Of a stretch of 64,000 nt of DNA, positions 17,748-47,848 are shown one piece after another. The translations under genes were made by a program, and so were the position numbers. The notes below the pieces were generated by a model that did not search any database, had not been told where the DNA came from, and worked only from the letters and a program-made list of their open reading frames with translations. Within the stretch, counting starts at the first letter, position 1, and every line of letters begins with the position of its first letter. The DNA is from Sphaerolaimus hirsutus (Eukaryota; Nematoda; Chromadorea; Monhysterida; Sphaerolaimidae), in NCBI GenBank assembly GCA_964036195.1, contig OZ038450.1, forward strand, positions 25,449,208 to 25,513,207. The letters are read 5' to 3'.

Positions 17748-17837
17748 AGTAGTGGTAACTCGGCATAAAGAACAACAATTTTGAGAATTTTTTAGAAAGA
17801 GGTACCACTGAAAATTTTCATTTTCATTTTCGTTTTT
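17748..17837 (+). repeat. Polinton left TIR
   Basis: About 90 bp matching the inverse of 47,123-47,212 with two mismatches. Flanked outside by TSD CGCGTA. Confidence 0.95.
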
Positions 17838-18024: not shown

Positions 18025-18077
18025 CCTTGGAACAAGACGAAAAAGTTCACATTCGCACAAAAAATTCAACATTCGAC

Positions 18078-22577: not shown

Positions 22578-23310
22578 ACAAGATGTTCAATTAGCCAATT
22601 ACGGTCAGTCGTATTTAATTATTGGTCCTAGTAAATGTGGAAAAAGTTCTTGGACATTAAAGTTTATTCATCACGCATTGAACGGTAAGTTTAACCTAGA
22701 TAAGATACCAGACAAAGTTTTAATTTGCTCAGGAAGTAATCAACATAATCATCCAGTTTATCAACAATTACAGAATGAGTTTCCAGATAAGGTGGAAATG
22801 TTGGAACGCAACAAGGTACCTTCCCTGTCCTCCCTGGAAGATACTAACTTGGCTCAAATAGTCGTGTACGATGATATGCAGTTATTATTACCGCAGTGGT
22901 ATACCAGTCGACTAATTACAAATTCGGTTAGTCATTCAAAAAATTTGATAACGTTAATACAGGTACACGACCCGTATTACAGTCCAAGCTTAAAGGTGAT
23001 TAGAAGAAACTGTTCTTATCTCGTTTTGTTTAAATACCCGACAGATCAAGTCGTTAACTCATTAGCAACTAGTTGGTTCGGGAAAAGCGAACAAAAGAAA
23101 AAATTTCTGCTTGCGTATAGTGACGCAATTTCTCAACCGTACGGATATTTATTAGTGTCATTTCAGCATATTCCAAACCCTATTTTTCAAGCCAGATCAA
23201 ATATTTTCAACGAAAACTCTCAAGACCAAATCGTCTACGACTTGTCAACGAATTTTGGGGGCGACAGTGGATCCAAATTTTCAAATTTTATAACAGTAAG
23301 TGACCAATAA
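22552..23310 (+). CDS. DNA-packaging ATPase (FtsK/HerA, A32-like)
   Basis: 252 aa from ATG 22,552. Walker A GPSKCGKSS at residues 25-33 and Walker B VVYDD at about 104-108. This is the Polinton homologue of the poxvirus A32-type packaging ATPase, thought to pump element DNA into capsids. It overlaps the end of polB by 26 nt, a compact virus-like arrangement. Intact. Confidence 0.9.
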   Translation: MTTEKYFTEQDVQLANYGQSYLIIGPSKCGKSSWTLKFIHHALNGKFNLDKIPDKVLICSGSNQHNHPVYQQLQNEFPDKVEMLERNKVPSLSSLEDTNLAQIVVYDDMQLLLPQWYTSRLITNSVSHSKNLITLIQVHDPYYSPSLKVIRRNCSYLVLFKYPTDQVVNSLATSWFGKSEQKKKFLLAYSDAISQPYGYLLVSFQHIPNPIFQARSNIFNENSQDQIVYDLSTNFGGDSGSKFSNFITVSDQ

Positions 23311-24715: not shown

Positions 24716-25759
24716 ATGAATAAAAAAAGACAAGCATTATTGAAATATTTGTGGTATGGTAAATACAAAAAAGGGAAAATAACTGCGAAAAAAGTAACAC
24801 CAGGATTGTTTGCATCAACTAAGACACTTTTCAATGAAGCACGCAAGTATGACAAAGACATTAAGCATGAACAAGTTTTATCTTTCTTGAAAAAGCAAAG
24901 AGGATACGTGTTTACCAAACAGACAAAGACATCAAAAAGACGCACTCGTCCCGTTATTAGCACGGGTTTGTACGATTGCCTGAGTATAGATTTAGCATTT
25001 CTCGGACCTCCCAAAACTAACTATGGTAATATAGCCGTGTTATTAGCCGTTGATACCTTTTCGGATATGATTCATTTTAGAATATGCAAGTCCAAGTCTG
25101 CACCACACATAACAAAAAAATTTGAAGAGATTTTGCGAGAGGTAGAGAGTAGAGGGGGTAGTGTGGAAACTGTATTTTGCGACTACGCAGCTGAATTTTT
25201 AAGCAAGGAATTTACAGAATTTTTATCTAAAGAGAAGATAACATTGACCCCATTAGCTAGTTACCAAAAAAATTCCCCCGTTGAGCGAATAATTTCCACA
25301 ATCCGTTTGAGATTAGCTAGATTTTACGCCACCACTAAAAACAGAAGATATTATTTCGCCCTCAAGTCGATTGTAGATGCTATAAATAGGACCCCCCAAA
25401 AGTATTTGGGCAATAAAGCTCCAATTCAGTTGAATATCTTGAATGATCGAGAGATATTTAAATTGAGATTTTACCCAAAATTAGAAAAAGGATCATTGAA
25501 GAATATACCTATCAAGAAAAGACCATTGCGCAAGTTCGCCATTAATGACCCGGTACGAGTACGTATCCACAAAACTTTCGCTAAATCTACAGACCAAAAG
25601 TTCTCCTCGAACATTTATTACATTGGAAAAATAAAAGATACATTTTTACCATATACCTACCGAATAGCGAAAGTGAAAAACGCCTCCGAATCCGAATTAT
25701 TACCAAAAGTTTATTACGCCCAAGATCTGATAAATGTCGAGGAGGACGTGATCATCTAA
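24716..25759 (+). CDS. Retrovirus-like (RVE) integrase
   Basis: 347 aa. Catalytic triad visible: SIDLAF (first Asp, near 91), CDYAAEF (second Asp, near 155), SPVERI (Glu, near 189); the spacing is about 33 residues between second Asp and Glu. The C-terminal 100 residues form a basic SH3/chromo-like tail. It inserts the element and explains the 6-bp TSD. Intact, 6 nt after the preceding stop. Confidence 0.92.
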   Translation: MNKKRQALLKYLWYGKYKKGKITAKKVTPGLFASTKTLFNEARKYDKDIKHEQVLSFLKKQRGYVFTKQTKTSKRRTRPVISTGLYDCLSIDLAFLGPPKTNYGNIAVLLAVDTFSDMIHFRICKSKSAPHITKKFEEILREVESRGGSVETVFCDYAAEFLSKEFTEFLSKEKITLTPLASYQKNSPVERIISTIRLRLARFYATTKNRRYYFALKSIVDAINRTPQKYLGNKAPIQLNILNDREIFKLRFYPKLEKGSLKNIPIKKRPLRKFAINDPVRVRIHKTFAKSTDQKFSSNIYYIGKIKDTFLPYTYRIAKVKNASESELLPKVYYAQDLINVEEDVII

Positions 25760-25760
25760 G

Positions 25761-26096
25761 ATGAATACTAAAGACCCCTCCACCCCTCCAACCATGGAAC
25801 CCCTCCTATTGTCACAAACTTCTACCGCATCTAAAAAGAGGTCAACCTACACGTGTAACTTGAGTAAGAAGCTAGTTGTTCAAGTCGGAATGACAGTTGT
25901 TCAACTGCTCACAGTGATAATCTTACTAGTATATATTTCCACGCGCCTCCCAAAAAATATTATTTATGAAAAATCCCCTGATATATTGAGGGCATTTTTG
26001 AGAATATTAGATAGAAATTCAGCCCAGGAACACATTTACGATTTAATTTTCGCTAATCACAAACCATGGAACCAAAGTCTAATGAATACCATATAG
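25761..26096 (+). CDS. Small single-pass membrane protein
   Basis: 111 aa with one clear hydrophobic segment (QLLTVIILLVYI, about residues 46-63) after a Ser/Thr/Pro-rich N-terminus. No signal peptide. Starts one nt after the integrase stop; its end overlaps the next ORF by 31 nt. Resembles no named family that I can assert. Confidence 0.7.
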   Translation: MNTKDPSTPPTMEPLLLSQTSTASKKRSTYTCNLSKKLVVQVGMTVVQLLTVIILLVYISTRLPKNIIYEKSPDILRAFLRILDRNSAQEHIYDLIFANHKPWNQSLMNTI

Positions 26097-27076
26097 ACAT
26101 CATTTTGGAACCCAATAATGAAGATTTTACAGCTTCTAATATGGTCTACGATTTCCCTAGTAATATACAATTCAACTTGTCTCAAAGTTGGGAAATATGC
26201 TTGACATCCCTTTCTTTTTCACACGTGGATCGCACAAGTAACGTCCTAGAACACGCCAGACACAATAAATATCACATGGTATATGATATCAATTCCAAGT
26301 TTCACTACGGTGAAATAACTTTTTCTAATCTCATGATAACAGATAAATTTCTCAAATTACCCACCGGTGAAGAAGTAATCGAGTGCGTTACGGACTCATT
26401 CAAAAATGCCGAGGAGTGCAAAAATTTACAAGACCTAAAACATAAAAATAAGCCCAATTGGCACCAACTTTTCGATTCAATAGAAGCGTATCAACAACCA
26501 GGGACGAAGTTTTATACACCCCCTCTAGCAGGCGATAGAAAACGAAAACACGCACCATTTGAAGATTTGAAACGTCACGAGGAAGGATTAGTCAAAGTGG
26601 AAAATTCCATGCACTTGTTAACAAATGAAAGATTAGCACCAATTTCATCTGCGGAAGAAAAAATACAACCTAAACTAGAATTTGAACAATATGGAGATGG
26701 AGTTTTTACAGTGAAAACAAATGTTCCCATGATAATTGTATCTGAAGCACTTAGAAATTTATTATCACTAAAAAATCATTTACTTGAAAATGGCGATTTA
26801 GTATTTCCTAGCTCAAGTTTTTTCCGCGGCAGCGAAACAGTATATATAGCCGAAGTTTCTTCACTTCAAAAAACTCTTTTTGGTTGCAACAAAGTGTCCC
26901 TCGGAAATATTTTCTTGGATAAAAACAAGATTATTCAAGACGTTGATTACTATCCTAATCAACTGAAATTCCATCCATTCGACTCAGTTTACACTAACAG
27001 GTTGCAATTTTCGTTGTTTCACGAGAACGGTTCTTACGTGCGAGAGCTCCGCACACTAGAATTTTCATGTCTTTAA
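26066..27076 (+). CDS. Probable minor capsid (penton-like) protein
   Basis: 336 aa. The N-terminal pattern FPSNIQFNLSQSWEICLTSL matches the 'F..P..I.L...WEVAL' start typical of a Polinton structural protein proposed as penton/minor capsid. It lies before the basic core-like protein and MCP, as expected for the morphogenesis block. Assignment rests on pattern and position. Confidence 0.6.
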   Translation: MEPKSNEYHIDIILEPNNEDFTASNMVYDFPSNIQFNLSQSWEICLTSLSFSHVDRTSNVLEHARHNKYHMVYDINSKFHYGEITFSNLMITDKFLKLPTGEEVIECVTDSFKNAEECKNLQDLKHKNKPNWHQLFDSIEAYQQPGTKFYTPPLAGDRKRKHAPFEDLKRHEEGLVKVENSMHLLTNERLAPISSAEEKIQPKLEFEQYGDGVFTVKTNVPMIIVSEALRNLLSLKNHLLENGDLVFPSSSFFRGSETVYIAEVSSLQKTLFGCNKVSLGNIFLDKNKIIQDVDYYPNQLKFHPFDSVYTNRLQFSLFHENGSYVRELRTLEFSCL

Positions 27077-27624: not shown

Positions 27625-29055
27625 ATGGCAGCATCCACAACTAGCAATGCCGGCGCTCAAGTTTTTATGCCGGAAACTGTACTCAAACAGAAAGTTGATC
27701 CATCGTCTTCTTTCGTAACAGCCGACGAGGTCAACTATTACGCCGCGCCGGCTATAGATTCCACGTTTGTTCAATCTCAACTTTTTGAAGTTCCCCTCAC
27801 AGTGCAACACAATGATTACAACACTAGCTGGACGTGGACGATAGACTCTTCTCAGTACTACATCGACTTGGCGAACATTTATGTTCGCATGAAGTTTAAT
27901 GTCGTAAATGAAGACGGTACCGATATTCCAGATTCAGTCACAACGGGGGTGGGGGCCGACGCGATTTCGTTTGAAACATTAGACAAAGTGGCTTTGATAC
28001 CAGGTTTCGGTAGTACGTGTTGGCGCACCGTTAAATTGTTTAGCAAGGATGCATTACTTATGGACATTTCCGACAACTTTGGATACATGGCTAATATGAG
28101 ACACAAGCTCTTACTCAACATGGATGACGTGTACAAGGAAAAAGAAATTGCCGGATTTTTTAATGAAAATTACACGAGGGACATAGAAAACCCCGCTAGC
28201 GAAAGTTTCCAACAGAGGGCGGCTCTAATAGCCGGGAGTAAAACATGCATTACCTACTCTAAATTAGCTTTAGACCTATTCACCACCAAACCTAGATGGC
28301 CAGCGGGATACCCTCTCACTATAGAGTTGGCTAGACACAACGACCAATTTTGTATAGAATGTTTTCATCCAGCCGTATCTGAATACGCTAAAAAGTTCAA
28401 AATAAAAGTGTCGAGAATACAATTGTTTGCCCTGCACTTGCAACCCAGCAACGAATGCGCCATGGCCGTGGAAAGATCAGTGATAAAAAGGCCGTTAAAA
28501 ATACATTTTCTAAATACGCGAGTAATAAGAGTAAACGTTCCTGGTAATCTGAAACAAACATCTCAGCAAGCTATTTACTCTGGGAGGCTACCAAACTTTT
28601 GCATTGTTCAAATGATAGAGGGGGACCGATACTTGACTCAAAATGTGAAAAAAGCAAAATTCTGCTTTAAACCATTCAAGATAGAAAGAGCGGCGATGCT
28701 GTTCGGAGCTACTCGACACCCGATGGTACCTTACTATTTCGACCGAAACGACGCCGATACGACGGATTTGGGATACGCTTTGGCTTTCTCAGAGTTGTAC
28801 AGATCGCTGAAGAAAAATTTTGATGTGAAAAACTGCCTATCTTTCAATGAATTTAAGCACAATATGTTCGCTCTAAGTTTCGACCCCGTAGTTTGCCCAG
28901 TTAGTGCGGAAAAAACTGATCTATTATCAATCAGGTTCGCTAGGTATAGACTTTTCATTCCACGACGTGACGCCGGCAGAGGGACTGGTTATTTTAGTAT
29001 ATTGTTTCAACATCGCCTCTCTCCATTTGCAACCGGACCGCACCATTTTGTCTAA
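27625..29055 (+). CDS. Major capsid protein (double jelly-roll type)
   Basis: 476 aa. N-terminal block with LFEVPLTV... and YYIDLANIYVRMKF follows the pattern of Polinton/adintovirus capsid proteins, and the C-terminal block (near 345-470: KPFKIERA, FALSFDP, LLSIRFARY) also fits. It would form the icosahedral shell. It is shorter than many Polinton MCPs (about 600 aa) but open end to end. Double jelly-roll fold inferred, not seen. Confidence 0.75.
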   Translation: MAASTTSNAGAQVFMPETVLKQKVDPSSSFVTADEVNYYAAPAIDSTFVQSQLFEVPLTVQHNDYNTSWTWTIDSSQYYIDLANIYVRMKFNVVNEDGTDIPDSVTTGVGADAISFETLDKVALIPGFGSTCWRTVKLFSKDALLMDISDNFGYMANMRHKLLLNMDDVYKEKEIAGFFNENYTRDIENPASESFQQRAALIAGSKTCITYSKLALDLFTTKPRWPAGYPLTIELARHNDQFCIECFHPAVSEYAKKFKIKVSRIQLFALHLQPSNECAMAVERSVIKRPLKIHFLNTRVIRVNVPGNLKQTSQQAIYSGRLPNFCIVQMIEGDRYLTQNVKKAKFCFKPFKIERAAMLFGATRHPMVPYYFDRNDADTTDLGYALAFSELYRSLKKNFDVKNCLSFNEFKHNMFALSFDPVVCPVSAEKTDLLSIRFARYRLFIPRRDAGRGTGYFSILFQHRLSPFATGPHHFV

Positions 29056-29147: not shown

Positions 29148-29675
29148 ATGGAAGTTTTGGACATTGAAACCATAATTAGAGGAGATACGGTATTAGGTCA
29201 AAATGGTGCTGGGTGCATTATTTTCGGCGAAGGCGACTTGAACAAAGTTATTTCAGTGGAAAGGGGGGTCGTCTGCTTCCTGCAGTATCCGGATTTGACT
29301 TGGGGTCATTTCATAGTGCTTTATAGAATAACACGTAATCACGTGTTCATTTTTGATTCGTTAGGTAGGCAGAATTTATCGCGTAGGGTGATCAGTGACA
29401 TTAAAATACAATTCGAGCGAGACTGTTTTTTTAGCTTCAACACAGTTGTGATACAAAATAAAGCTGCAGATACTTGCGGCTTGTACGCCCTAATTTTTTT
29501 AAAATTGATGTTTTTATGCAAACCAATTAAAGAAGGTAATGCTGTTTTGCGAATTATATCACTGATTTGCAAACACGATGTGAGAGTCTTGTTTCTCACA
29601 TTATTCGCAACTACTTTGACGACAATTAAGCATAAATTGTCAAGCGCCGCTAAAAATGTAATAAAACAATATTAA
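29148..29675 (+). CDS. Adenovirus-type cysteine protease
   Basis: 175 aa, close to adenovirus maturation protease length. Catalytic set His in WGHF (near 53), Asp in IFDS (near 69), Gln near 103 and Cys in DTCGLYAL (near 109). Expected to mature the capsid proteins. Last gene of the intronless plus-strand block. Intact. Confidence 0.92.
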   Translation: MEVLDIETIIRGDTVLGQNGAGCIIFGEGDLNKVISVERGVVCFLQYPDLTWGHFIVLYRITRNHVFIFDSLGRQNLSRRVISDIKIQFERDCFFSFNTVVIQNKAADTCGLYALIFLKLMFLCKPIKEGNAVLRIISLICKHDVRVLFLTLFATTLTTIKHKLSSAAKNVIKQY

Positions 29676-31186: not shown

Positions 31187-31480
31187 GGTGGGATATGGTA
31201 GATTTCATTGGAAAGTGTGCAGTCATAAAAATCTTATGCGTAGAACACTTACATGGAATGCTTCCTTAAAACTAACAATTTTTGGGGGATATGGTAGATT
31301 TCACTGCAAAGTGTACGGTCATAAAAAATCTTATGCATATAACACTTACATGGAACGCTTCCTTAAAACTAACAATTTTTGGGGGATATGGTAGATTTCA
31401 CTGCAAAGTGTACTGTCATAAAAATCTTATGCATATAACATTTACACAGAGGGGGGGTGGTCCTAAAAAATGACAAAAGA
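31187..31480 (+). repeat. Three ~97-bp tandem units
   Basis: GGGATATGGTAGATTTCA recurs near 31,190, 31,286 and 31,383 with similar sequence between. The short ORFs over it are repeat by-products. 31,481-31,907 shows nothing recognisable. Confidence 0.75.
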
Positions 31481-31907
31481 CTGCTCATAGACACAGCGAT
31501 TTGCGACACGAAAGTCTAATATTTGTGTGAATAGTTAATTTTTTTGTCAAAATTTTGTGAAGTGAATTATTTGCGGAGATTTATTACATCAAAATTTTCT
31601 AGTATGTCTGATTGATAACTTATTTTGAGGGGGTTTTCAAGGGGGTACAAGGGGAATTACAGAAGCAAATACGGTATCCTTTGCCCAAATCGCTGTGCGA
31701 CCGAAAAAATAACAAAAAATCACTGCAAATTGACCAACCACATAGAGTCATAAAAAATGCTCACGAAAATACTCAGAACTGCTGCCATGCCGAATGCCGC
31801 CGCGCTACACGCTGTCAACTCGCTGTGCCACTGCCACCCACCCGCGACTCACACTACAGACGCGCTGAAAATTTAAATGTGACAGTGCAATTGTGACAGA
31901 TTTATAT

Positions 31908-32100
31908 TACCGTATTTCTTCTAATAGAATGGTATGACAGTGTGATTGTGACAAATTTACATTACCATATTTCTTCTAATAGAATGGCATGACAGATCCA
32001 CATTACCATATTTCTTCTAATAGAACACCACCTCCAATACAATGACAGGTAAAAAGTTGATGAAAAATTGGATGGCACTCTTCTATTAGAAGAAATATGG
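31908..32100. mobile_element. MITE, TACCGTATTTCTTCTAATAGA family
   Basis: Left end TACCGTATTTCTTCTAATAGA, right end TTCTATTAGAAGAAATATGG. The left-end motif is present three times in tandem (31,908; ~31,965; ~32,005). Other copies at 40,107-40,438, 54,194-55,723 and 58,401-58,874. Confidence 0.8.
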
Positions 32101-32195: not shown

Positions 32196-33525
32196 TCACG
32201 TGGTGAGACCCTTGTGCTCACCTCGCCCCTCTTCAAATTGGCCAAAATCCGCGCCACGCTGAAAACTGGCAGCGGTAAAATGTCGGTAGGCGCGCCCAGA
32301 ACCGGATGCACTGCGGTGCAGATGCACGCGGCTGTTCGTGCCGCGTGCCGAGCGCATGGAGCGGTCCAAATCGATCAAATTGCTGTTGGCGGTGCTGGAG
32401 CGCGCAGGGGCCAAGCTCCCAGCCTTGGCGGCCGGATCGTGGTGCCCCGCGGCGACAGCCTGGCCATGGTGCCCCGCGGCGACGCCCTGGCCGTGGTGCC
32501 CCGCGGCGACGGCCTGGCCGGGGTGCCCTGCGGCGGCGGCCGGGTCGTAGTACCCCGCGGCGCCGGAGGCGGCCGAGTCGTAGTACCCCACGGCGGCCGG
32601 ATCGTAGTGCCCCACGGCGGCGGCGGCTGGATCGTAGTACCCGGCGGCGGCCACTCCTCTGGCATACACATTCGCGATGTCACCTGTTGTGGTAAAAAAA
32701 AAACATTTGCAGGTTTTTTCTTTGAAAAAAACTCATTATCAAAAGTCCTCAAAAGTCAGCAGGAATTTTCAATTTTTATTGAATTTCAATGATTAAAAAA
32801 TATTCCATCAAAATTGTCTAACCTTGCATTTGATTCACAGTGCCGACCACGGCCCTCTGATCAACCATCATTTCATCGATGCGGGCGAACATCTCGCGGA
32901 TATCTGCTTGGATTTGCATACCCCACTGTGGGTCTGGAAACAGTCCCATACCCTGTAAAATTTCAAATGACAGGTAAAAAAATGTCAATTAATGCTGTGA
33001 TTTGTGAAGCGGCGTGACGTGTCTTCACGAAGCGCTCTAGTCCTTTCATTTACAATTTTCACATCTCTCTCTTCACAATGGTGCTTTGACAGGAATGTGT
33101 CATGCTTGTAAAATATCATACAATGTAAAAAATTTACTTAAGGTTTGACAGCTTCGTGAAGACACGTCACGTCGCTTCACAAATCACAGCATTAATTGAC
33201 ATTTTTTACCTGTCATTTGAAATTTTACAGGGTGTGAGACTGACACCTGCGGCATGGGATTGGGCTTGGGGTTGTGATTCGGGATCCTGTTGGGGTTTCG
33301 GTTGGGGTTGCGGTTTGGTTTGCGGCTGGGATTGATCATTGTTTCCATTCGGGGGGTGAACAAAAACGACCGCGTCCGTGGCTGCACCTCGGCGACGGCA
33401 GCGGCGCAGTGGGTTTTCGGAGGGGGCGCCATCATTGATCGGTATGCGGCCCCTACTGGTGCAACCCCCACTGCACCCGGCTTTCTGCAATTGTGGAGAC
33501 TTTGTGGTGAAAAATTTACTTCCAT
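32196..33525 (-). CDS. Polinton spliced gene 1: Pro/Asn-rich protein with GYYDPAA repeats (three exons)
   Basis: Predicted exons (minus) 33,525-33,229; 32,952-32,823; 32,683-32,196; 915 nt, 304 aa. Junctions are phase 0 and phase 1 and keep frame. Donors GTAAAA and GTTAGA; acceptors TTTTACAG and CCACAACAG. Exon 1 ends in an NPNRNPNR-type repeat, exon 2 is amphipathic helix, exon 3 begins with repeats AAGYYDPAAA / AAGHHGQ, then a basic tail. No signal peptide or membrane segment. Intron 1 is wholly a foldback element (separate entry). The true start could be further up, but an in-frame TAA lies just before the ATG. I recognise no family. The simple repeats recall self-assembling or structural proteins, which is only a guess. 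Confidence 0.65.
32953..33228. mobile_element. Foldback element that is exactly intron 1 of spliced gene 1
   Basis: Arms ACCCTGTAAAATTTCAAATG... and the inverse, near-perfect for over 60 bp. The tips provide GTAAAA as donor and TTTTACAG as acceptor on minus (and equally on plus). A second motif inside, ATTTGTGAAGCGGCGTGA with its inverse, matches the hairpins at 36,031-36,750, so one foldback sits within another. No clear target duplication. Confidence 0.75.
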
Positions 33526-33640
33526 AGCTTATTTGTAAACATGTGTATCAATCAATTGTTCCACAGTAGGATTCAAAGAGTATCCCAACCGCTGGAAATT
33601 TTTCAATTTCGCAGTTCCAATTCGAAACCCGACACTTCGA

Positions 33641-36600
33641 TCATGATTCCGAAAAAGTTGCCTAATAGTGAGAAAAAATAGTGGAAATTATAAACAGTGA
33701 AAAAATGTGGACGCAAATGGGCGAAAATATTCATCCCTAGACCCCAATCCCAATCCCGTGAACCGGACCCCAGTCAATCCCGATCCTGATCCCAAAACAC
33801 CAATCCCGATCCCGATCCCGAAAAGTCAATCCTTTTGAATCCTAATCCCAACATGGTAACCCTATGGTAGCATTTTTCTGAATAGTCATAAAAAATTCTT
33901 TTTTGTAAAATTTTCACATTTCTCACTCATTCCACCAAAAAAAATGGCAAACTCACCGACGCGCAATACTGAAAAAAGTATGCGGACAAAAACATCAATA
34001 AATTTGTGGCCCCCTGGAAACCGCTATCGAATATTTTGTACCACCAATCTTCAATGTATGCCTCTATGCTCAAGACGCTCCCCTTTATGATCTTGACGGT
34101 GTCATCTATGCGCAGCACGATGGTCAAAATGCGGTCAATCTGAGGGGTGTGGGGTGGTTTTGAAATATTGACAATTACACTAAATGTCAACTACAGTGCG
34201 TGCAGAAATTCCTGTGTGTATTGGCACCGAGCCATGTGCCACTGTTACTCCGCGCACTCGCCCCAGCCTACATCTTAAAACTGCAGGTGAATTTTGCTCA
34301 ACCAGGCGTGTGGTTTTCCCTATACAAACTTGTGATTTTTACGAACCTTTCGAGGCCCACCACGCGCTTAAAAAATGGGAATTGTGGGTCGAGTGTACGC
34401 ACAGATTGCTAAAATTATGTGTGTTCTCAGTCGAATGTGAGAAATTTGACTGTCGTTATTGAGGTTACACACAAAAAAAAGGTGAGCGTGATGGAACGTT
34501 CTTGATTTTTTGGGGTTAGTGCTAGTGGGCATTTACACGAAAGTGGGCGGAGCTTGCGCCAACCTAATATCTAATGCAAAGCAAAATATCTGCACGCACT
34601 GTAGTTACAATTTCAGTTCAAAAGGGTGCATAAATTTTCTATTTGAACATCTGTTACCTTGTATTCATCATTTGAACTGAAAATTGTAACTAGTTGACAT
34701 TTAGTGTCATTGTCAACTGTTAGTGTGGAAAACTGGTATATTAAAAAATAGTGGGGGATAGTAAAGGTATTGCGGTTCAGATAGGCCCTGCACAACACAA
34801 CCACCAGAAGAAAATCCATTTCTATTCTACAAATCATATGCAAACCTTTTCAACAAAGTCCTCATCCAAAGCCTGGTATAATTTTGCGCTTTTTGCATGC
34901 ACCACTGATGCCACTTTTAAAGTATCAGTGAAAGCAGATGCGCCCATTGTGGGGGTAGGTGTAGTATGTGAGGCAGTGCTGGTTAGGATACCACTAGTTG
35001 TTGGTTCCACCACAGATGTGACAGGTGCACCTCGGCTAAAAAAACAAAGCCAAATTCAATGACATGATATGCAATACTAGATTGCAGAAAAGACAACATT
35101 TATCAACTCACAGCTTTGCAATGCTTTTCCAATTTAATGCATGGTGTTTACACAGGGTGTCAAGATAGAATCTGTCATTCATGAGTATGCTAGCAGCCTC
35201 TGTCACATTACATTTTGGTGCTGGAGGGGTTTTTAGTGATTGAGCAGTCATTGCTGGACTTGTCAGAAGTGTAGTTGGGGGTGTAGTTGTCAGGGGTGTA
35301 GTTGTCAGTGGTGTAGTAGTCAGGGGTGTAGTTGTCAGTGGTGTAGTAGTCAGGGGAGTAGTAGTTGGGGGTGTAGTAGTCAGGGGTGTAGTCTTGTTTG
35401 GAGGTGATGGGGATATCTAAAAAATGATTGGTAACCAACATGAGTACACATTTCCAAAAAAACTTTTGATCTGTCAAAAAAAACAGACCCAAATCAAAAA
35501 AGGTGTTGGCGATACACATGGCTCCGGACTTGGGCAGGGTGGTGGGGGTGGGCAAGGGCAGTTTTTTGCACAGGCTTCGCATTCACAAGTGGCAGATTTC
35601 ACAATGCACCATTTCAATTCACCACCCTTTTTTGTTCTGTATGCATGCATCTGCTGTTTGTTGATAGATGTTGTCGGTTCAGTGGTAGTGGGAAATGTCA
35701 CAGACTCGGGTACACTTGTCACTGGCACAGAAGTAGTAGTGCTAGTGGTATCAGTGCTAGTGGTATCAGTGCTGGTCGAGCCCGCTAACTCACCATGCGG
35801 CGTGGTTGATATTGGAGACTGTATTACGTGGGATTTTTATGCTGATTTGGATGCTACCCAAAAAAACAACTGGATCCTAATTTTCAATATTGAATTTAGA
35901 AGACAAAAAATGCTTAAATATTTACTTCACCCAATTAGCGGTAGTTCGTTGGCGATCAGAAACCTTGAAAAGTTCTTTCATATCTCAGAGATCGAATCCG
36001 GACCCGGAGATTCAAATCACGGCAAAACTGGATTTGTGAAGCGGCGTGAAGTGTCTTCACGAAGGTGTCTAATCCTTTCATTTACAATTTCGCATCTCAT
36101 ACTTCACAATGGTGCTCTGACAGGTGTGGTATGTAAATGAAAGAATTAGACAACTTCGTGAAGACACTTCACGCCGCTTCACAAATCCAGTTTTTGCTGT
36201 GACTCCCAATATCCAATAGTCAAAAAATACTATCCCCGCACCATAATCCCTATTTCGAAAACTGTAATGCCATTAAAAACCAACAAAAAAACTGGATTTG
36301 TGAAGCGGCGTGAAGTGTCTTCACGAAGGTGTCTAATCCTTTCATTTACAATTTCACATCTCATACTTCACAATGGTGCTTTGACAGGTGTGGCATGTAA
36401 ATGAAAGAATTAGACACCTTCGTGAAGACACTTCACGCCGCTTCACAAATCCAGTTTTTGCTGTGACTCCCAATATCCAATAGTCAAAAATACTATCCCC
36501 GCACCATAATCCCTATTTCGAAAACTGTAATGCCATTAAAAACCAACAAAAAAACTGGATTTGTGAAGCGGCGTGAAGTGTCTTCACGAAGGTGTCTAAT

Positions 36601-37724
36601 CCCTTCATTTACAATTTCACATCTCATACTTCACAATGGTGCTTTGACAGGTGTGGCATGTAAATGAAAGAATTAGACACCTTCGTGAAGACACTTCACG
36701 CCGCTTCACAAATCCAGTTTTTGCTGTGACTTCCAATATCTCCGCATCATATTCCCTATTTTGAAAACTGTAATCCCATTAAAAAAACACTAAAAAACGA
36801 ACTTTTTCATTGGTGATCTTTTTGAAATTGTCCTCAGTTGTTGCGGTGTAGGGGCTGGTGCGGGGGTTGGTGCGGGTTCTGGTGCGGGTTCTAGTGCGCG
36901 AGCGCGTTTTGCTAGCGCCCGTACCGACATTACCGCCAGTGCCCGTGTTGCTGCCAGTCTGCATTTTGAGTAAACAAACATGTATATTGATAAAACAAAA
37001 AAGAAGACATATGCGCTAGTTGACATTGCAAATTTTGTGTTAAATCAATGTCAACTAAAAATGCAAAATTTTAAATATTAGTTTACAGTAACAATGGAAA
37101 TTGAGTGTCATGATATAAAATTCTGAGGTTGAAATCACAGAATTCATTAAAATTTAATTGACATGAATTCAGTTGGCATCCAGCCTGTGTGGTACCATAA
37201 TTCCCCTATTTACCTATGTAAAAAGTGGTAACAAATAAAAAATCACACCTTAATATTGCAATAATAATTCTGGGTATTCGGGAACATTTCCTTCACATCA
37301 TTGCAAAGTTGCTCCAACGGGGACGTGACTGTGAGCGTGTAGATGTCCTGTTCCAAACCGTACCTGCGTGTAATTATTTATTTGACATTCAAAAATTCTT
37401 GGGTGAATTTATTTATTTAACTAGATTGCAATATTGTAGTTCTTCCGAGTATAACGAAAAGTTCTATAAGTTTTGTACTCACAAATAGTCTAAAATGTGT
37501 CTCCAATAGATTGGTACCCCCCAATAGAACGGCACTTCTACTAGAATTGCAGGTAAAAAGATGCCTAAAAAGTAATTAGCTAACCCAGTTAAGTCGTAAT
37601 CGGACTGCACTTTGCAATCAGCCTTGCTGCCAAAACAGTCACATAATTTATTGTCACACGGCGAGTTGGCGAGGATGGTGTGCAATGCCACGCATGACAA
37701 CACGACGTAGCAAATCAGACGCAT
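33641..37724 (-). CDS. Polinton spliced gene 2: secreted/membrane glycoprotein, mucin-like (eight exons)
   Basis: Predicted exons (minus) 37,724-37,483; 37,363-37,249; 36,958-36,803; 35,818-35,516; 35,416-35,112; 35,035-34,846; 34,139-33,957; 33,661-33,641. 1,515 nt, 504 aa; every junction keeps frame, with good donors (GTGAGT, GTGAGT, GTGTGA). Signal peptide MRLICYVVLSCVALHTILA, then a Cys-rich start (CDNKLCDCF). Ser/Thr-rich exon 4 ends in a Cys/Pro cluster; exon 5 has tandem TTTPL repeats (likely O-glycosylated stalk). Exon 7 has a hydrophobic heptad-like helix, a Trp pair (EDWWYKIF, near 468-475), then a membrane-like segment (near 477-496). This order resembles a viral surface protein with a membrane-proximal stem, but no sequence homology is claimed. 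The tiny last exon is the least certain. Confidence 0.65.
34194..34601. mobile_element. Tc1/mariner-type MITE in intron 6 of spliced gene 2
   Basis: TIRs CAGTGCGTGCAGA and TCTGCACGCACTG flanked by TA on both sides (34,192-34,193 and 34,602-34,603). 408 bp, no transposase. It sits within a CTAGTTGACA-type foldback. The ORF at 34,184-34,462 is a chance frame. Confidence 0.85.
36031..36780. repeat. ~264-bp unit in three tandem copies, each with a hairpin
   Basis: Units start near 36,031, 36,295 and 36,558. Each holds GATTTGTGAAGCGGCGTGAAG and its inverse, about 150 bp apart, joined by shared spacer. Lies in intron 3 of spliced gene 2 (36,802-35,819). The hairpin motif is also inside the foldback intron of spliced gene 1. 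Confidence 0.85.
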
Positions 37725-40106
37725 TTCTGTGATTAAATTTTTTTGAATTTTTCAAAAATTGCAACCTAAAATTGCCAAAGGGGGGATGTGTTTTTCAAAA
37801 TTTCATTTTAGGGCACAGTATTCATGTCTTGTACCCATATACTTCATATTTCAATGCACACCATTTTAAAAAACCATTTTTATGCAGTTCCAGCTCTAAT
37901 TGCGGATTCCTCAGTGTGACGATATCATTTGTAAAACTAATTTTGGTGTTAGAGTGCAAAACTCTAATGAAAATTCAATCAAATTTTGTGATTTTAAAAA
38001 TTCACCCCAAAACACTTGTGAAATTGAACTTTAAAAAAACTGACTAAAAATTTTCTCTACACTAATGGGTGCTCTTCTGGTAGCGCCGGATCAGCAGCTC
38101 AGTACTCGTCTGGATACTGTGTTTTCTGCATATTAATGAGAATTTTTAATATCGTATTGATATTTGCTGCCAGCGATTTCAATCGACATTTTAGAGTCGA
38201 TATGCACACTTGATCATTTTTTTCAAATACGTGGATTTTCGATATCGATAAATTGTATAAAATGTGCATATCGACTCTGAAATGTCGATTGAAATCGCTT
38301 ATCGGTGAGTGGGATGGTAGGGTGTGGTGATAAATACCCCAATAAAAAACTGTACCAAGCTATTTTCAATCGACTTTTTGGGTCGATATGTGTATACTCG
38401 GTGGACATGATACTCTGCCCTCGCACTCATTTATGTCTCACATTGGAGGCGTACCAATGATGGGTAAAGCATGCGATTTTTGTACATAAGATGAAAAAAT
38501 CATCGTTGTCGATAATTTAACGTATAGTGTTATAACAGTGATGACTTCTATCAACTTTTTATGAAAAGCGCATGCGTAAAAAATTGTTGGCACGCATCCA
38601 GCGGGAACCGCGCGTGCAAGGTGTAAAGTAACTGGAGTATACTTGATCAATTTGATCACTCAAAAACGATCGATTACGCGTATCGACTCAAAAAGTTGAA
38701 TAAAATCGATTATCGCCAAGGGGTAAGTTTCCCACTGTCTGGAAGTGATAAAAACATGATGATCTACGTGAATTTTCCCCATATACAGACTTTTTTGGGA
38801 AAGAGAATTGTCAACTCAAGTTCACCACCCAAATATAAAGCTAAAAATTTAAAAAACTCAACTTTAAAAAATCTGCCAATATAAACTTTTCTTTGCAGCT
38901 CGGTGCTCTTCTGGTGGCGGCGGATCGGCAACTTGGTGTTCATCTGCATATTTACACAAATTAAAACCCGCTGATCGATGATAAGCGATGTCATTCCAAC
39001 TTTTCGAGTTGATATGTGCAATCGACTGTTTTTGATTGTGCCAGGTATACTTTGCGTAAAATATGGATGATATTCACATGATCGATTATTGTTCACATGT
39101 GCGTATCAACTTGGAAAGTTGGAAAGAAATCGCTTATCAACAAGTGCCTTTGTTACTGATTGTTTGGAGATGGTATTTTGCAGGGCGTTTTCCATGACAT
39201 TTTACATTTTTACAGGGTCTACGAATGACCCCAGATGGTAAATTCGCTACAAAAAATGTGATTTGATGATGGTGGGGTTTAGTTCCTCGATATCCAGAAA
39301 ATGACAAAATTCACAAATATCAGTGTGAATTTACAATTCTACAGGGCTATCAGTACACCAGCCGCCTTTCAACCATATTGATACATGAGGTCGATCAATT
39401 TGGGAAGCTTGAATGTCAAATAAAATGAATCGAAAACTTGTATATTTTTTAAAATATAAATATTTGCTATCTAAAACCTCCAAATTGATCGACCTCTAGT
39501 CTTAGAATGAGGGAAAAAATAAAAAAAGTCAAAATAACCTGAATTTTTGACGATGGAATTTTTAACAAATTTGCAGCATTTAATTACCATAAAATAAAAT
39601 AGTTGACCGGTGGCATTTGACGCAAAAAATTAGTGAAATTGTCTAGGACATTCTGAACATAGGTTTAAAACATGTAAAACCGGGTGAAAAAGTGAATAAA
39701 ATGCCTATATTTTTGAGCAAAAATACACAAAATGGGGTCGGAGATAAGAGACGTCTGTTCTCGATCAAATGTCACTCGTTTTTTTTGAAAAAAGGTAAAT
39801 ACACAGTTGTTCTTTTTCTTCCTATTGTATTTTTTCTGTTTATAAAGATCTCAATTGGAATCGTGTCACGTGTGATGACTGAATCCTCAACCAAGTTACC
39901 AGTCGCGTATTATACGAACAAGCATAAAAGCTAGCTCAACATTTCCGAAATTTGGCGGAGCTGGTAAAATCTTCATACGGAAACTTTCCCCTCAATTGTA
40001 CCAAAAAATGGAGAACCGTGGATTAAATGCCTTGGTATTCAGACAACAAACGTGATGAAGTGAAAAAAAAACACTGGGCCGGCTGGAATTGCGATGACTT
40101 TAGAAC
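37725..40106. other. Gene-free stretch with hairpins
   Basis: Several inverted repeats around GATTTCAATCGACATTTTAGAGTCG (38,170 and 38,270) and similar at 38,360, 38,680 and 39,000. Two related phrases GGGTGCTCTTCTGGTAGCGCCGGATCAGCA (38,065) and GGTGCTCTTCTGGTGGCGGCGGATCGGCA (38,902) look like decayed coding repeats. A small MITE lies at 39,387-39,496. No exon chain found. Confidence 0.5.
39387..39496. mobile_element. Small MITE
   Basis: Inverted ends GAGGTCGATCAATTTGG and CCAAATTGATCGACCTC, 110 bp apart in total. Confidence 0.65.
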
Positions 40107-40438
40107 TACCGTATATCTTCTAATAGAGTAGCATAGTTTGAAAAGATGACACTGTCAATAGAACGGAAAGTTTTGATAGTTTTCGGTACTCAAGAAAAAT
40201 TGAATGGATGCCTCCAATAGAATGGCACCTCCAATAGAACGGTAGGAGGAAATTACGTTTGTAAGAGTACCAAAACACAAATATATTTAGAAAATTGGTT
40301 GTTTTCACATTTGGTTTGTTTAAATTGATGCTCTGGCATTCAAATATCGCTCATGTCCCACTAAAAATAAAATGGCAACCTCCAATAGAACGATGGGTAA
40401 AAATAGAATGGGAGCGTTCTATTAGAAGAAATATGGTA
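40107..40438. mobile_element. MITE, TACCGTATTTCTTCTAATAGA family
   Basis: Left end TACCGTATATCTTCTAATAGA, right end TTCTATTAGAAGAAATATGGTA. Interior has AATAGAACGG / CCTCCAATAGAA words as in the other copies. Confidence 0.8.
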
Positions 40439-40530
40439 CTTCTGTGTGTGCTCGATGGGTCCTACATGTTTTCCTTGTGTAAATATTACACTTCAATATT
40501 CATGAATATTCATGTCCCATCCGAATTTAT

Positions 40531-42529
40531 TTAAGCCATTCTAGCGAGCTGAATGTAATATTTCAACCACAGCAACAAGAAAAATAAAAATAATCCATGT
40601 TCTCCGGAATTGTTTTCAAAGAATACAGTATGCATTATGCTACGTAGTCTCATTACACCATGTGTACTTGTAAAATTCGATAAAATATACTTATGTAGCG
40701 GGGTGGAATTTGGCTTTATAAATACATCAATCATATTTTTAATAAGGGCACTCACAAATCCATCCATTGCCCAAATATTTTCAAAAATCACTTCTCTGAT
40801 GGCTCTATTCACATTGAATGTGTGAATCACATCATACATGTAACTATCATTGACCAAAGGTTGTACATTACCATTCAGGACCAGCATTTTACCTACACCT
40901 ATCATAGACAGGAACATAGCTGTTAAATTGCTAATGGCCATCTGAAATTTTTTTATTTGTACTTATTTTTCATTTTTTTATTTGTAATCTAAGAGAATAC
41001 TAACGAAAGCTGTCAATAATGCTGCATCATCAAGAATTAACAGATTTGCCATATTTTGATTCCAAAATGTAAATCTTGGTATTGCACCAGATCTAATCAA
41101 TTGCCCCAAAGTTCTGTGATGCTATCAAGTATATAATCTTTGGCATATTTTTTGAACATAGACTTGTGTAGAAAAAATACCTAAACTGATTAAAAGCATT
41201 GAGTTCCCTCATATCCATTCCAGTCAGGTAAGGGTGAATTTCCACATTCACCAAATGATTTGCATCGACAGGGGATGGCGTCATTTGATATATTGTATGA
41301 AAACAATTAGACCTACTATTGTGTGAATTTTGAAATCGATTTGTCTGTGTGTGACCCTGGTGCTGGAATGGTGCAGCATTTGGATTCAACGGCCTCACAG
41401 TGGCGGCAGGCATAAATCTTTTTTTGAATTTCATATATCAATTTTACAATAATAAAATTTTTAAATTTTGAAAAAACATACTGTTGTTGACATGGGGGTA
41501 ATTGTGGGATCTGGGTCCTCGGGTGAATTTGTGCAACACATGGTGGGGGTACTTGATGGGGTACATAATTGTTCACTGGGGTATTGTGTGGTTGTCTTGG
41601 AGTCTGGAAAACGTTATATTTTATTTATACTGTAAATCCTCGAATAAGATCCCCGGGGAGTTTTTTTTTTTCATCAGAATATTTTGAGTGTGTGGAATTA
41701 TTCAATGGAAGCCCGGTAAAAATATCAAAACAGAAATACCTGGTTGTGTTGATCACTATTTGGTTGAGCTGGTTGTTCGCCACCAACTACACACACATTT
41801 TGCACATTGGTTCCTTGGTAGACATGTCAATTTTACAAGTAGACAATTGGCATGTGTAGTGCTAAGAAAATTTCTGGTCCCGGTCCCAGTCCAGTTTGAA
41901 CCTAATGCCAATCCCAAAAATGCCCCAATTCCGATCCCCAGATAAATTCACAGACACAAAAAGCGCCAGAAAATGGAACTTCCCATTTTGTATGCAGTTT
42001 GCAAATAATTTGCACTTAACACTTTACTTGTCATTTGTCTACTTGTGAAATTGACACCATGTAAATTATCACCAACAGCCCTTGCATTGTTTGGGGGAAC
42101 AGGTTGCCCCGGTGTATTGGGTTGTGGTGGAGGTTGCCCCAGTGTATTGGGTTGTGGTGTATTTAGTGTGTTATTTCTTGCATATTGATGAGTATTACCC
42201 ACCACATTTGATGAAGATGGTTGATTTGGGTCATCTGCTAATATTTCCTCCAACCCAGTGAGTAATTCTGAATACAAAAAACTTAACTTTTTGGTATATA
42301 TTTTTCAAAAATACTTAACACCTCTATTCATACCTGGGTTCACATGTTGTAAAAAGTCATTTAGATCATCGGCTTCAATGTGTTTTTCATATGCCCCTCC
42401 ACTAGGTCTAAAAATGATTAAAAATACATTCTTTTCTAAAATTGTATGGTCAAAAAATATTTACCTTAAGACACAGTGACACATAACACACATAATTTGC
42501 CAAATGGTGATGGAAACTTTCACATTCAT
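40531..42529 (-). CDS. Polinton spliced gene 3: type I membrane glycoprotein (eight exons)
   Basis: Predicted exons (minus) 42,529-42,465; 42,407-42,334; 42,267-42,028; 41,813-41,740; 41,603-41,482; 41,417-41,181; 41,113-41,005; 40,941-40,531. 1,332 nt, 443 aa; all seven junctions keep frame through mixed phases (2,1,1,0,2,2,0), which is unlikely by chance. N-terminus MNVKVSITIWQIMCVMCHCVLR fits a signal peptide, exons 3-6 are Pro/Asn/Gln-rich (PQPNT repeats), and the last exon has several N-glycosylation sequons (NLT, NDS, NST, NFT, NNS) and ends in a strong membrane segment (GLFLFFLLLWLKYYI). Surface-protein topology like gene 2. No family recognised. Exon 3 ends inside one arm of a foldback sequence. 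Confidence 0.72.
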
Positions 42530-42955
42530 TTTAGGTGAGTTTTTTTTGTTGAAAATTTGAGCCACAAAACACACATATGCACAGAATGAACTTTATTTTA
42601 TATTTGGGGCCAAGTAAGCTAACCAATAAAAATCACTACATAAAATTGCTTAATATTCACTTCCAAATATTTCGTTGTAACTTCATACATACCTGTTCCA
42701 AAATAAAACAACGGAAATTCATTTTTTATGGCCTTATTATCTGCCCCTTTTTATTGCCTTCACACTTTTTATTACCCCAAAATATTCGGAACATCGGTTG
42801 ATTTTTCATAGTGTTCAGACAATAAATAAATAAATAAATAAAAATTTTATTTTCACATTAATTTTTGAATAAAACTTTATTTTCACATTAATTTTTGAAT
42901 AAAATTTTATTCATTTTTGAATAAAAAGTTTATATTTTTGATTGCTTGAATGCAG

Positions 42956-42964
42956 TATAAAAAG
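42956..42964 (+). promoter_or_regulatory. TATA box of spliced gene 4
   Basis: TATAAAAAG 63 nt upstream of ATG 43,019. Genes 3 and 4 diverge from this 490-bp interval, which otherwise holds TTTTTGAATAAAA repeats (42,835-42,930). Confidence 0.6.
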
Positions 42965-43018
42965 AAAGGGAAATTTGCACAAATTCAAAAGAATTACTTC
43001 ACATTTTGAAAACTCAAA

Positions 43019-46000
43019 ATGGCTTCCCAGAAAACAATTTTCATAGCTGAAAACACTGAGTAAGGGGTATTTAAAATTAATTTGACAAACCTAGTGCAAT
43101 ATATTGCAACTAGAGCTCAAGAGAACTTTTATGAGTATCTGAAATGTTTATTTTTGTGAATATTGTGAATCTAGATAATTCTTTTGAGAGTGACCTTTTC
43201 AGGGGTGGGGTGAAAATTTCTGAAATTTTTCGGTATTCCTGTAAGCTCTAATTGCAATTTAAAAATGAAATCACCCTTCCCTGCCAAACACACAAAAACT
43301 GAAACATGCACGCAGCGTGGGGGGTGGCCCCTTGGCCGATGGTGTGGGTGACTGCACACACCCCAACGGCATTGCCGGGCAAGCGGGTCCCGGTGGACAA
43401 GTGACCCCGGACGGTGTGGGTCACTGCGTGCGCCCTGATGGCATTGGCGTGCAAGCAGGTCCCTGCGGCATTGGCGGGCAAGCAGGTCCCGGCGGGCAAG
43501 CGGCCCCCGACAACGGCATGGGTCACGGTATGGGTTACTGCATTGGCGAGCGAGCGGGCGACTGCGCACACCCCAACGGCATTGGTGGGCAAGCAGCCCC
43601 TGCGCAGCCCGACGGCCTGGAGAACGAGTGCGGCTACTGTGGCTGCATTGGTTGTACAATGTGTGCTGATGCGGGCATGGATGACTGCGCGCATCCGGAC
43701 TGTGCACAGCCGGTGGGCGGCAGCGGCGGTGGAGTGGGTGACAAAATGCTCACCGATGGGGCGGAAAATGTGCAGGAAACAAATTTCAGGCCGTGAATTT
43801 GTCAAGTAAAATGTCAATTTCTGTGTAAAATGGCAATTCATTTAAAAAGTTGGTGTATACTTACATTTTTCTTTTGTTTACTAGTTCACATTTTATGCAG
43901 AAATTGACATTTTACTTGACAAATTCACGGCCTGAAATTTGTACCTGGTTGATGTAGTGCCGGATCGGGTCCATTCCCCACCTGTGAGATGTGAAGATCT
44001 GATTGTGCAAATCTGGTACGTTATCCTTTATGGGGGTTTATGGGCTTTTAATATTTTTTAGCTACCCCCAGGGGAGTTATTTTTGTGAGGGGGCCTTATT
44101 TGAGGGTGAGGGTTATTTTTTTGCGCAGAAAATCAGGGGAGAACTTATTCTAGTATTTACAGTAATATTTAATATGAAGATCAAATTTCAAAAATTTCAG
44201 CGATCCGGTGATGTACTTGACACCACCCCCACCGGCGCCGGAGTTATTGGAGACACCACCTGAAAGCCCACTACCCAATTTTACCCTACCTCCAACGCGC
44301 GTGACCTATGAGTATGTTTTTTTTTTGAATAAAAATAGCAAATTTGACAAAAACTGAAAACTGGAAAAAATTGCAGGGGGTTGAGAAATCAATCAGATGG
44401 GTCAAAAGACTACCCACAGCCATTCGCTTTCTACCCTGATGGTAACGGTGGGTTATATTACACAAGGGTTGCTGGCACACCGCCGCCCAGTAGTTCAGGT
44501 GCTTCAGGTGACTGTGAAAGCATGAGTAGTTCAAGTGCTGCAGACAGCTGTGACAGCATTTTTAGTTGGATAAGTTGGGATATGGTATCAGAAAGCGATA
44601 GGGACTATGTTATGTCAAATGAGAGCGGGTCTGATGGGAGCGAGTCTGAAAGCGGGTCAGGGAGCGAAAATGGGAATGAAACATTGGATTGCATGAAAAT
44701 GCGAATGAGAAGCTCATTCAAAATCATGAATAAAGTTTATGGAAATTTCAGCATGTTGTTGAAAACTTTGGAGGCTGAAAAAAAGGTTATTTGATTATGT
44801 ATTTGGTTTCTGTCTGTTTCAGTCAAAAATTTTTGAACCCGTAATAATAATGTTTCAATGAGATACCAAGCCCCATAAAATATGTTTTTGCCCAAGTGTA
44901 TTGAGGTAAATACTCAAGTATAAATACTCAAGTAAACTACCTCAGCGTTGCACCGCAAAAAAATACTCAAGTGGTGAACAACATACATACCATAACGTGG
45001 TATCATATTTTTGAAGGGGGTTCCATTTGGGGCCCCTGAAAAAAACATGACATTTTTTCTCAGAACCTCACCCCGATCGAACTCGCTCGCGGTGAATACC
45101 TGCCCATTGATTTGAAAATTGACATGGTGTCAAAATGTCGGGCTAAAATGGTGGAAAGTATCCATCAGGTCAAGGACATTGGTGTACAGGATGTACTGGG
45201 TGTTGTGTTTACTGGGGAAAGATTGTGTGATATGGAGGGTGTGAGGAACCACTTGATAACCGAGGTACTAACCATTTTTAGTTTTAATATCATAAAAGGG
45301 TGGGTCCAAATAGGCACCTCCAAATAGAACGGCGCCTCCAAATAGAACGGCGCCTCCAAATAGAACGGCGCCTCCAAATAGAACGGCGCCTCCAAATAGA
45401 ATGACACCTCCAAAATAGAATGACACCTCCAAATAGAACGGCGCCTCCAAGTAGAATGGCGCCTCCAAGTAGAATGGCGCCTCCAAGTAGAATGGCGCCT
45501 CCAAGTAGAATGGCGCCTCCAAATAGAATGGCGCCTCCAAATAGAATGGGGTCCCCAAATAGAATGGCGCCTCCAAATAGAATGGCGCCCCCAAATAGAA
45601 TGGCGCCCCCAAATAGAACGGTGCCCTTATATTAGAAGAAAATAGGGTAAATTTTCATACAACATGTTTTTTCTTTGCCCAGCACAAAAGTCTGGAAAAA
45701 TGGACAAAGGATAGGCTGCAAGAATTACAACAGCGAATCGACTTTTTCAATGAAAACATTGACACCTTGGTAAAAGTGAATGTTGTTTTGAAAAAGGAGG
45801 GCAAAATTTTGCAAAAAGAAAATTTTCCCATTTGGAAGGTGGTGGGGGAGAGTAGTGAAAATTCCATGTGTTCGGCTGGATACTCAAGAGAATGTGAGCC
45901 GATAAAATACATCTTGGGCAAATGCAAAAAAATGAAAATGGAACACAAAAGGGGTGTGCAGAATGGAACCATAATTTGTAAAGAGTGCACTGTAAATGAT

Positions 46001-46247
46001 GGGGCGAATAGGGGAAAACAGTGCGAAGTTTTGAATAAAAGTTAGACATTAAATTTTTAGAATATTTTGGGCACTAGAAAATAAAAAATTTACACTTGTA
46101 GTTGACCGGGATACCACAAATGAAATAGATGAACACAAAATGATTGTGGTAATTGGTTACTACGAATGCAAGATTTGCAATGAGAATGAAATCAGTGAGA
46201 TTGATCTGACAGACAGCTCTGATGATGAGGAAATGGATGAGGAGTGA
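43019..46247 (+). CDS. Polinton spliced gene 4: Cys/Gly-repeat and acidic protein (about eight exons)
   Basis: Predicted exons 43,019-43,059; 43,316-43,786 interrupted by a MITE then 43,941-44,015; 44,201-44,311; 44,377-44,785; 45,064-45,264; 45,683-46,045. Junctions keep frame when the MITE is discounted. Alternative 3' end: exon 7 stops at 45,977 and joins 46,102-46,247. Exon 2 has repeats like GDCAHPNGIGGQAGPGGQ and a Cys cluster (CGYCGCIGCTMC); exon 5 is Ser/Glu-rich and acidic; the last exons have CxxC pairs and an acidic tail. No signal peptide or membrane segment, so probably intracellular. With the MITE in place the exon reads into a stop (43,796) unless a donor near 43,737 or similar is used. 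Family unknown. Confidence 0.62.
43787..43934. mobile_element. MITE inserted in an exon of spliced gene 4
   Basis: Arms CAGGCCGTGAATTTGTCAAG and the inverse, 148 bp, flanked by AAATTT (43,781-43,786 and 43,935-43,940). The reading frame on both sides is the same once the element and one TSD copy are discounted, so this is a late disruption of a coding exon. Confidence 0.85.
45315..45626. repeat. 18-bp tandem array in intron 6 of spliced gene 4
   Basis: About 17 units of CCTCCAAATAGAACGGCG and variants. It ends in TATTAGAAGAAAATAGGGTA, a decayed right end of the TACCGTATTTCTTCTAATAGA family, so it looks like an expanded MITE word. ORFs on both strands are due to the 18-bp period. Confidence 0.9.
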
Positions 46248-47122: not shown

Positions 47123-47212
47123 AAAAACAAAAATGAAAATGAAAATTTTCAGTGGTACCTCTTTCTAAAAAATTCTCAAAATCGTTGTTCTTTATGCCGA
47201 GTTACCACTACT
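47123..47212 (-). repeat. Polinton right TIR
   Basis: Inverse of 17,748-17,837 with two mismatches, followed by CGCGTA (47,213-47,218). Confidence 0.95.
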
Positions 47213-47664
47213 CGCGTAACGGCTATATTTTACACCGTTGCAAAGACCACAGAGTCCTCTATCAGAATCCACAAAGTTTGATTGTGGACATTGTGGGCTT
47301 CGCAACGGTGTAAAATATAGCCATTACGAGGATCTGCATTGTGCTTTCACAGGCGATGCAAACTGCGGGAACTGACCTGAAAGCACGTTTTGATTTCTTA
47401 GGTATAAAGTAGCAACAGGGACCCCCTATAAACTTTGTGGATTCTGATAGAGGACATTGTGGGCTTCGCAAGGGTGTAAAATATAGCCGTTACACGGATC
47501 TGCATTGTGCTTCCGCAGGCGATGCAAACTGCGGGAATTGACCTGAAAGCACGTTTTGATTTCTTAGGTATAAAGTAGCGACGGGGAACCCCCATCAAAC
47601 TTTGTGGATTCTGGTAGAGGACATTATGGGCTTCGCAACGGTGTAAAATATAGCCGTTACGCAC
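47213..47664. repeat. 167-bp satellite, right remnant with inversion
   Basis: 47,213-47,281 continues the forward unit cut by the Polinton. From about 47,282 to 47,664 the units run in reverse orientation (about 2.3 units), so the element has head-to-head satellite arms. 47,665-47,847 leads to the right TIR and has no gene. Confidence 0.9.
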
Positions 47665-47848
47665 ATCTGTGTGTGGCTTGATCACCTTACATCACCATCC
47701 CACGTTAAAATGCTTGATTATGCTATATATAAGAGGAAACTGAAAATATGAAATATGATTTTTTTATCAGTGCTATATAGGCAACACTTTAAGAAAATAA
47801 AAATTTTTTGGGTGTCCAAGTTTTGGCCATCGACTCGTGGACTGACTC

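Follow-up and report, generated by a model that had tools for sequence, protein, structure and literature searches.

The window analyzed here, a stretch of 64,000 nucleotides from the nematode Sphaerolaimus hirsutus (GenBank assembly GCA_964036195.1, contig OZ038450.1, positions 25,449,208 to 25,513,207 of the forward strand), contains a complete-looking 29.5-kb Polinton/Maverick whose right half carries a predicted spliced gene, named D in this work. The explanation that best accounts for the data overall, to which we assign a probability of about 0.75, is a Polinton with an uninterrupted core and an accessory half harboring D as a spliced gene that has been under selection and has long been adjacent to the right terminal inverted repeat (TIR). 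An earlier note on this DNA had left two options for the introns of the right half, namely, capture of host genes together with their introns or a Polinton lineage with nuclear-spliced genes. The second is supported for D by the recurrence of its exons, its splice sites and its place beside the TIR at seven other loci of the same genome.

The model of D is as follows:

43019..46247, + strand: gene D, 372 amino acids, 6 exons (43019-43059, 44201-44311, 44377-44785, 45064-45264, 45683-45893, 46102-46247), in frame, GT-AG introns

As for all final gene models in this work, it was checked for an open frame, GT-AG introns and a single final stop. A previous version, with a wrong start of exon 3 and without the last exon, was rejected because its frame was broken.

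A search with the last exons of D in the 348-Mb host genome (762 contigs) yielded 29 matches, window included, several of them pieces of one locus. Eight loci were read, the window and seven others (L002 to L008), over about 3.5 kb each at the right ends of copies. Close copies are located on contigs C13 (23.76 Mb), C6 (23.69 Mb) and C14 (17.53 Mb), and diverged ones on C13 (4.25 Mb), C7 (6.25 Mb) and C16 (2.5 Mb). An exon-wise comparison showed that every one of the eight has exons 3 to 6 in the expected order, although L003, L005, L007 and L008 have exon 3 only in part. The GT after exon 3, the AG before and the GT after exon 4, and the AG before exon 5 were present in 8/8 loci, and the donor of exon 5 was plainly kept in six of them. 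Nucleotide alignments to the window were made for six copies, L007 being left out. Exons 4, 5 and 6 were free of insertions and deletions in L002, L003 and L004; in L005 and L006 this held for exons 4 and 5, and exon 6 had 3 bases missing in the former and 1 extra base in the latter. Across the aligned copies, intron 4 varied in length from 59 bp (L005, L006) to 653 bp (L003). Protein identity was as low as 57-72% in exon 4 of diverged copies, and about 58-70% in exons 4 and 5 of L005 and L006. Judged from sequence, D is thus a spliced gene; the model has five introns, and the other copies back introns 3 to 5.

The codons of D point to a constrained protein product. Over 165 codons compared between the window and L004, the synonymous divergence (dS) was 0.43 and the nonsynonymous divergence (dN) 0.032, a ratio of 0.074. 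The ratios for the close copies L002 and L003 were 0.24 and 0.19, on few changes, and dS exceeded 1 or was saturated in the far copies. These codon comparisons indicate that D has been under purifying selection.

Two features lie within introns of D. Intron 4 of the window contains an expansion of an 18-bp tandem repeat (about 17 copies, 45313-45618). Intron 1 contains a GC-rich open frame on the + strand (43269-43793) with Cys/His and Gly-rich repeats; it is possibly an alternative exon of D, since by eye it joins exon 1 in frame, though not simply exon 2.

The element that carries D extends from 17,748 to 47,212 (29,465 bp), its first bases being AG and its last CT. Its borders are the following:

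17742..17747, no strand: left copy of the target site duplication (TSD) CGCGTA, 6 bp, read out from the sequence
17748..17837, + strand: left TIR, 90 bp, starting with AGTAGTGG, 88/90 identity to the inverted right TIR
47123..47212, - strand: right TIR, 90 bp, also matched beside D in 7/7 other loci, with the last base reached in five
47213..47218, no strand: right copy of the TSD CGCGTA, read out from the sequence

This single pair of TIRs and single TSD bracket both the core genes and the right-half module, and the 14-kb module is therefore inside the TIRs, as the earlier note had stated. A 167-bp satellite array occupies 13067-17747 and 47213-47670 (TRF: 28 copies on the left, about 2.3 on the right). 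As CGCGTA lies directly outside the TIRs and both flanks beyond it run into the same satellite, the satellite represents the target DNA of the insertion and not a part of the TIRs; the alternative of counting the arrays as TIR was ruled out by the position of the TSD between the two. A right border at 47,217, 5 bases beyond 47,212, was also discarded. By eye, the right satellite remnant changes orientation, some of it being direct and some inverted.

In L002, L003 and L004, homology to the window extends from D across the right TIR as far as 47,212, with other DNA beyond. As the match stops at the last base of the element, these loci represent separate insertions. The exons of L002 are nearly identical to those of the window, which argues that this copy moved recently. 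L005 and L006 match the TIR to its last base with scores of 37 and 30, compared with 16 and 18 for the best of 100 shuffles; the match in L006 lacks the first seven bases of the TIR. In L007 and L008 the match is partial and does not reach the last base (score of 26, compared with 18 and 19 for shuffles). These two hardly differ in the 103 codons compared and also have in common ten bases past the TIR match, and they may therefore be one duplicated copy. A TIR match beside D was thus found in all eight loci read. The earlier note had held that absence of the module from every other copy would indicate a one-off insertion of host sequence; D itself was found beside the TIR at seven other loci. 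This recurrence argues that D is an old resident of the lineage rather than a one-off capture, and comparison of the copies indicates that D has been kept beside the right end since before their divergence.

The left 12 kb of the element contain open reading frames (ORFs) that are all uninterrupted, which confirms the earlier description of the left-half genes as intronless; the right 17.5 kb form the accessory region. The core genes read as follows:

18027..22577, + strand: type B DNA polymerase of the organellar/viral family, one ORF of 1516 amino acids (DNA_pol_B_2, 7.8e-35; relative P0002, 8.2e-52, 24% identity)
22540..23310, + strand: putative packaging ATPase, 256 amino acids, Walker-like motif by eye
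24716..25759, + strand: retroviral-type integrase, 347 amino acids (rve, 1.5e-5, under the curated cut-off; integrase region of Ty3 Gag-Pol, 1.7e-6)
26066..27076, + strand: putative minor capsid protein, 336 amino acids, proposed from gene order alone, no Pfam match
27625..29055, + strand: major capsid protein candidate, 476 amino acids (5.3e-4 to a single fish F54H12.2-like protein)
29148..29675, + strand: putative cysteine protease, 175 amino acids (weak matches to Peptidase_C39, 0.0067, and C48, 0.09, both under cut-off)

The putative ATPase had no Pfam match and no match in PDB better than E 0.57, and the putative protease had no match in PDB. The F54H12.2-like label is one that we take to be a mark of Polinton capsid proteins; the AlphaFold model of the capsid candidate (predicted local distance difference test score of 36.8) was too poor for its fold to be read. 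We infer that the polymerase is protein-primed. When compared with viral contigs, the polymerase gave no pattern match, and the integrase pattern was matched in 10 stretches, none of which was confirmed. A viral-type type B polymerase, a retroviral-type integrase, TIRs and a 6-bp TSD are among the attributes of Polintons/Mavericks, and their joint presence suffices to identify the element as a Polinton. Further Polinton attributes are a major capsid protein, a packaging ATPase and an adenoviral-type cysteine protease, for which the element has the candidates listed above. Intronless genes are a usual trait of Polintons but not a strictly defining one; the trait is true of the left-half ORFs and is violated by D.

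In the remainder of the accessory region, three further spliced gene candidates were modeled:

32196..33525, - strand: gene A2 candidate, 304 amino acids, 3 exons (33229-33525, 32823-32952, 32196-32683), in frame, GT-AG introns
33206..37724, - strand: gene A1 candidate, 504 amino acids, 7 exons (37585-37724, 37249-37363, 35516-35818, 35112-35416, 34846-35035, 33957-34139, 33206-33484), in frame, GT-AG introns
40531..42529, - strand: gene C candidate, 419 amino acids, 8 exons (42465-42529, 42334-42407, 42073-42267, 41740-41786, 41482-41603, 41181-41417, 41005-41113, 40531-40941), in frame, GT-AG introns

The intron phases are 2,0,0,2,0,0 in A1 and 2,1,1,0,2,2,0 in C, and the N terminus of each of these two candidates is hydrophobic. 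A small third exon of A1 (36,925-36,958) was rejected because it breaks the frame. The last exon of A1 and the first exon of A2 overlap at 33,229-33,484 in different frames; thus, A1 and A2 are not both correct as drawn, and at least one of them is wrong there. Comparative support from other copies covers D alone among the four genes. The earlier note had described four GT-AG chains, with the frame kept in three of them. The four chains, paired with A2, A1, C and D by place and length, were recovered, and the frame turned out to be kept fully in D as well. The 3 exons and 304 amino acids given for A2 stand; for A1 the 504 amino acids hold, with 7 exons and not 8, and for C the 8 exons hold, with 419 amino acids and not 443.

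An inverted-repeat miniature inverted-repeat transposable element (MITE) with ends CTGTAAAA/TTTTACAG is present at 32941-33242. It has the same borders as intron 1 of A2 and is introner-like (for introners, see the accessible text of PMC9860276). A CTGTAAAA/TTTTACAG-like repeat is also found outside the element, between two coding pieces of a trypsin-like serine protease recognized by eye (47820-48160, - strand); the two pieces remain in frame if this repeat is removed as a GT-AG intron. An exon end resembling the protease piece occurs near 12,842-12,880 (+ strand) as well. The window further contains a Ty3/gypsy-type retrotransposon (3340-10008, + strand) with ORFs for reverse transcriptase, RNase H and integrase.

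We compared the right half with chance expectation by means of a purpose-written gene finder, whose coding statistics came from the left half of the element and whose splice weights came from general knowledge. With strict costs, two chains in the right half reached 8 bits or more (8.8 on the + strand and 11.0 on the - strand), and none did so in three control stretches (both strands) or in 12 shuffles. The control at 29,676-32,100 is itself right-half DNA, and most of the control DNA also trained the non-coding model; the shuffles, but not these controls, therefore count as fully independent. Under looser costs, the scores were 48.4 for region A, 28.2 for region C and 38.8 for region D. The maxima over 40 shuffles per region were 18.7, 0 and 24.9, with 10/40, 0/40 and 14/40 shuffles above zero, and the maxima over stretches of the right flank, to which the same training caveat applies, were 20.6 (n = 14), 17.9 (n = 20) and 20.6 (n = 18). 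Because the best chains have extra small or other exons and miss some, these scores back the regions and not each exon border. A setting with low intron costs was dropped, as it chained the entire right half on both strands.

Database searches were conducted for the accessory proteins. Spliced D was compared with a protein collection by a method that detects only relatives sharing 5-residue words, and none of 6386 candidates reached E 0.001. Single exons of the module gave only below-cut-off matches in Pfam, and three exon pieces gave no useful relative in PDB. Three gp41-like matches of exon 5 of D in PDB (best E 0.13) were discarded as coiled-coil noise. D comprises 18% acidic residues, and its exon 5 is coiled-coil-like. 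As tentative guesses from composition, D could be an intracellular regulator, and A1 and C could be secreted or membrane proteins facing the host.

Three other explanations need to be weighed against that of a Polinton with a long-resident spliced gene. The short-ORF chains might be chance joins, as suggested by the claim of A1 and A2 to the same exon in different frames, by the reliance of the gene finder on generic splice weights, and by its chaining of the whole half on both strands under lax costs. For D this is refuted by the conserved splice sites and the signature of selection, and regions A, C and D all score above their nulls, so that chance joining is highly implausible. The earlier judgment that it was unlikely is upheld for these regions by the comparison with shuffles and flanks, with comparative proof for D alone. 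A single capture, by this Polinton copy, of host chromosomal DNA that brought along its spliced genes is an unlikely source of the right half. Introns are typical of host genes, and the element exceeds the 15 to 20 kb typical of Polintons; moreover, host-type repeats and MITEs (pieces of at least 30 bp) occur in the right half exclusively, the first at 30,091, as would be expected of captured host DNA. These repeats are equally compatible with tolerant introns and spacers and do not discriminate between the two. That D and the right TIR occur together at seven other loci, among them diverged ones, speaks against a single capture, an argument that reaches D but not A1, A2 and C. Finally, D and its TIR might come from a second, perhaps shorter, family of Polinton derivatives that lack core genes, the element in the window being a composite. 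The other copies were read at their right ends only, which would leave room for such a family, but in the window core and module are bounded together by one pair of TIRs (88/90) and one TSD, and we consider this origin quite unlikely.

Several observations, along with the distribution of repeats, weigh against a long-resident spliced gene in this Polinton family. The reading of the loci covered right ends, and the core-gene region lies outside it. Exon 2 of D was recognized in four of the eight loci, and exon 1 was found in no other locus by protein comparison, its place being beyond the DNA compared. Exon 3 is weakly conserved (38-47% in L005 to L008), L008 is poorly aligned in exon 5, and the reading frame of D is interrupted in two copies: L007 has exon 5 divided between two frames, and L006 has exon 6 divided in the same way. 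The accessory genes also had no relatives in Pfam (single exons), PDB (three exon pieces) or the protein collection (D).

That Polinton copies carry a conserved intron-containing gene suggests that part of the element's programme requires splicing of RNA in the nucleus. Host RNA polymerase II would transcribe the accessory genes, their transcripts would be spliced in the nucleus, and the element would, like adenoviruses, have an expression phase dependent on the host spliceosome. Adenoviruses have a protein-primed type B polymerase and make heavy use of nuclear splicing. They share the type B polymerase (here probably primed in the same way) and splicing with the present element, in which, by contrast, the core genes are uninterrupted, the predicted splicing falls in the accessory half, and integration generates TSDs. 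We give about even odds to the broader proposal that the whole accessory half (A1 or A2, C and D) is a nuclear-spliced programme kept over long diversification, an adenovirus-like spliced set beside uninterrupted capsid and replication genes.

Teratorn-like elements are a fusion of piggyBac with a herpesvirus, and their enzymes differ from those of the element described here. Like the present element, they are very large viral transposons, and the figure legend of a review has them drawn with exons (PMC6431247). Vertebrate Mavericks/Polintons have TIRs, a 6-bp TSD and a conserved core gene set as in this case, but according to the accessible passages of PMC8097293 the genes of intact elements have no introns, which is said to agree with Kapitonov and Jurka 2006, whereas the conserved gene D has introns. 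Nematode Mavericks are likewise cargo-bearing, with wosp proteases and krma kinases of nematode gene families and a putative fusogen (Widen et al., as summarized in a meeting report, PMC10680173, available in part); no relation of the wosp/krma cargo to the genes described here was found, in searches not aimed at these names. The introns that the available text of PMC12220804 describes in polinton-like viruses of protists are self-splicing group I introns, a different kind. The accessible parts of further accounts of giant elements and Mavericks (PMC6431247, PMC2646287, PMC5718144) contain nothing on spliced Polinton genes, and the literature searched, in part-texts and with most subscription journals outside its coverage, yielded no account of conserved spliceosomal introns in genes of Polintons.

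If the interpretation of D is correct, elements of the Polinton type can depend on the host spliceosome, which would place Polintons nearer to adenoviruses in their mode of gene expression. It would also mean that annotation based on ORFs misses accessory genes of Polintons.

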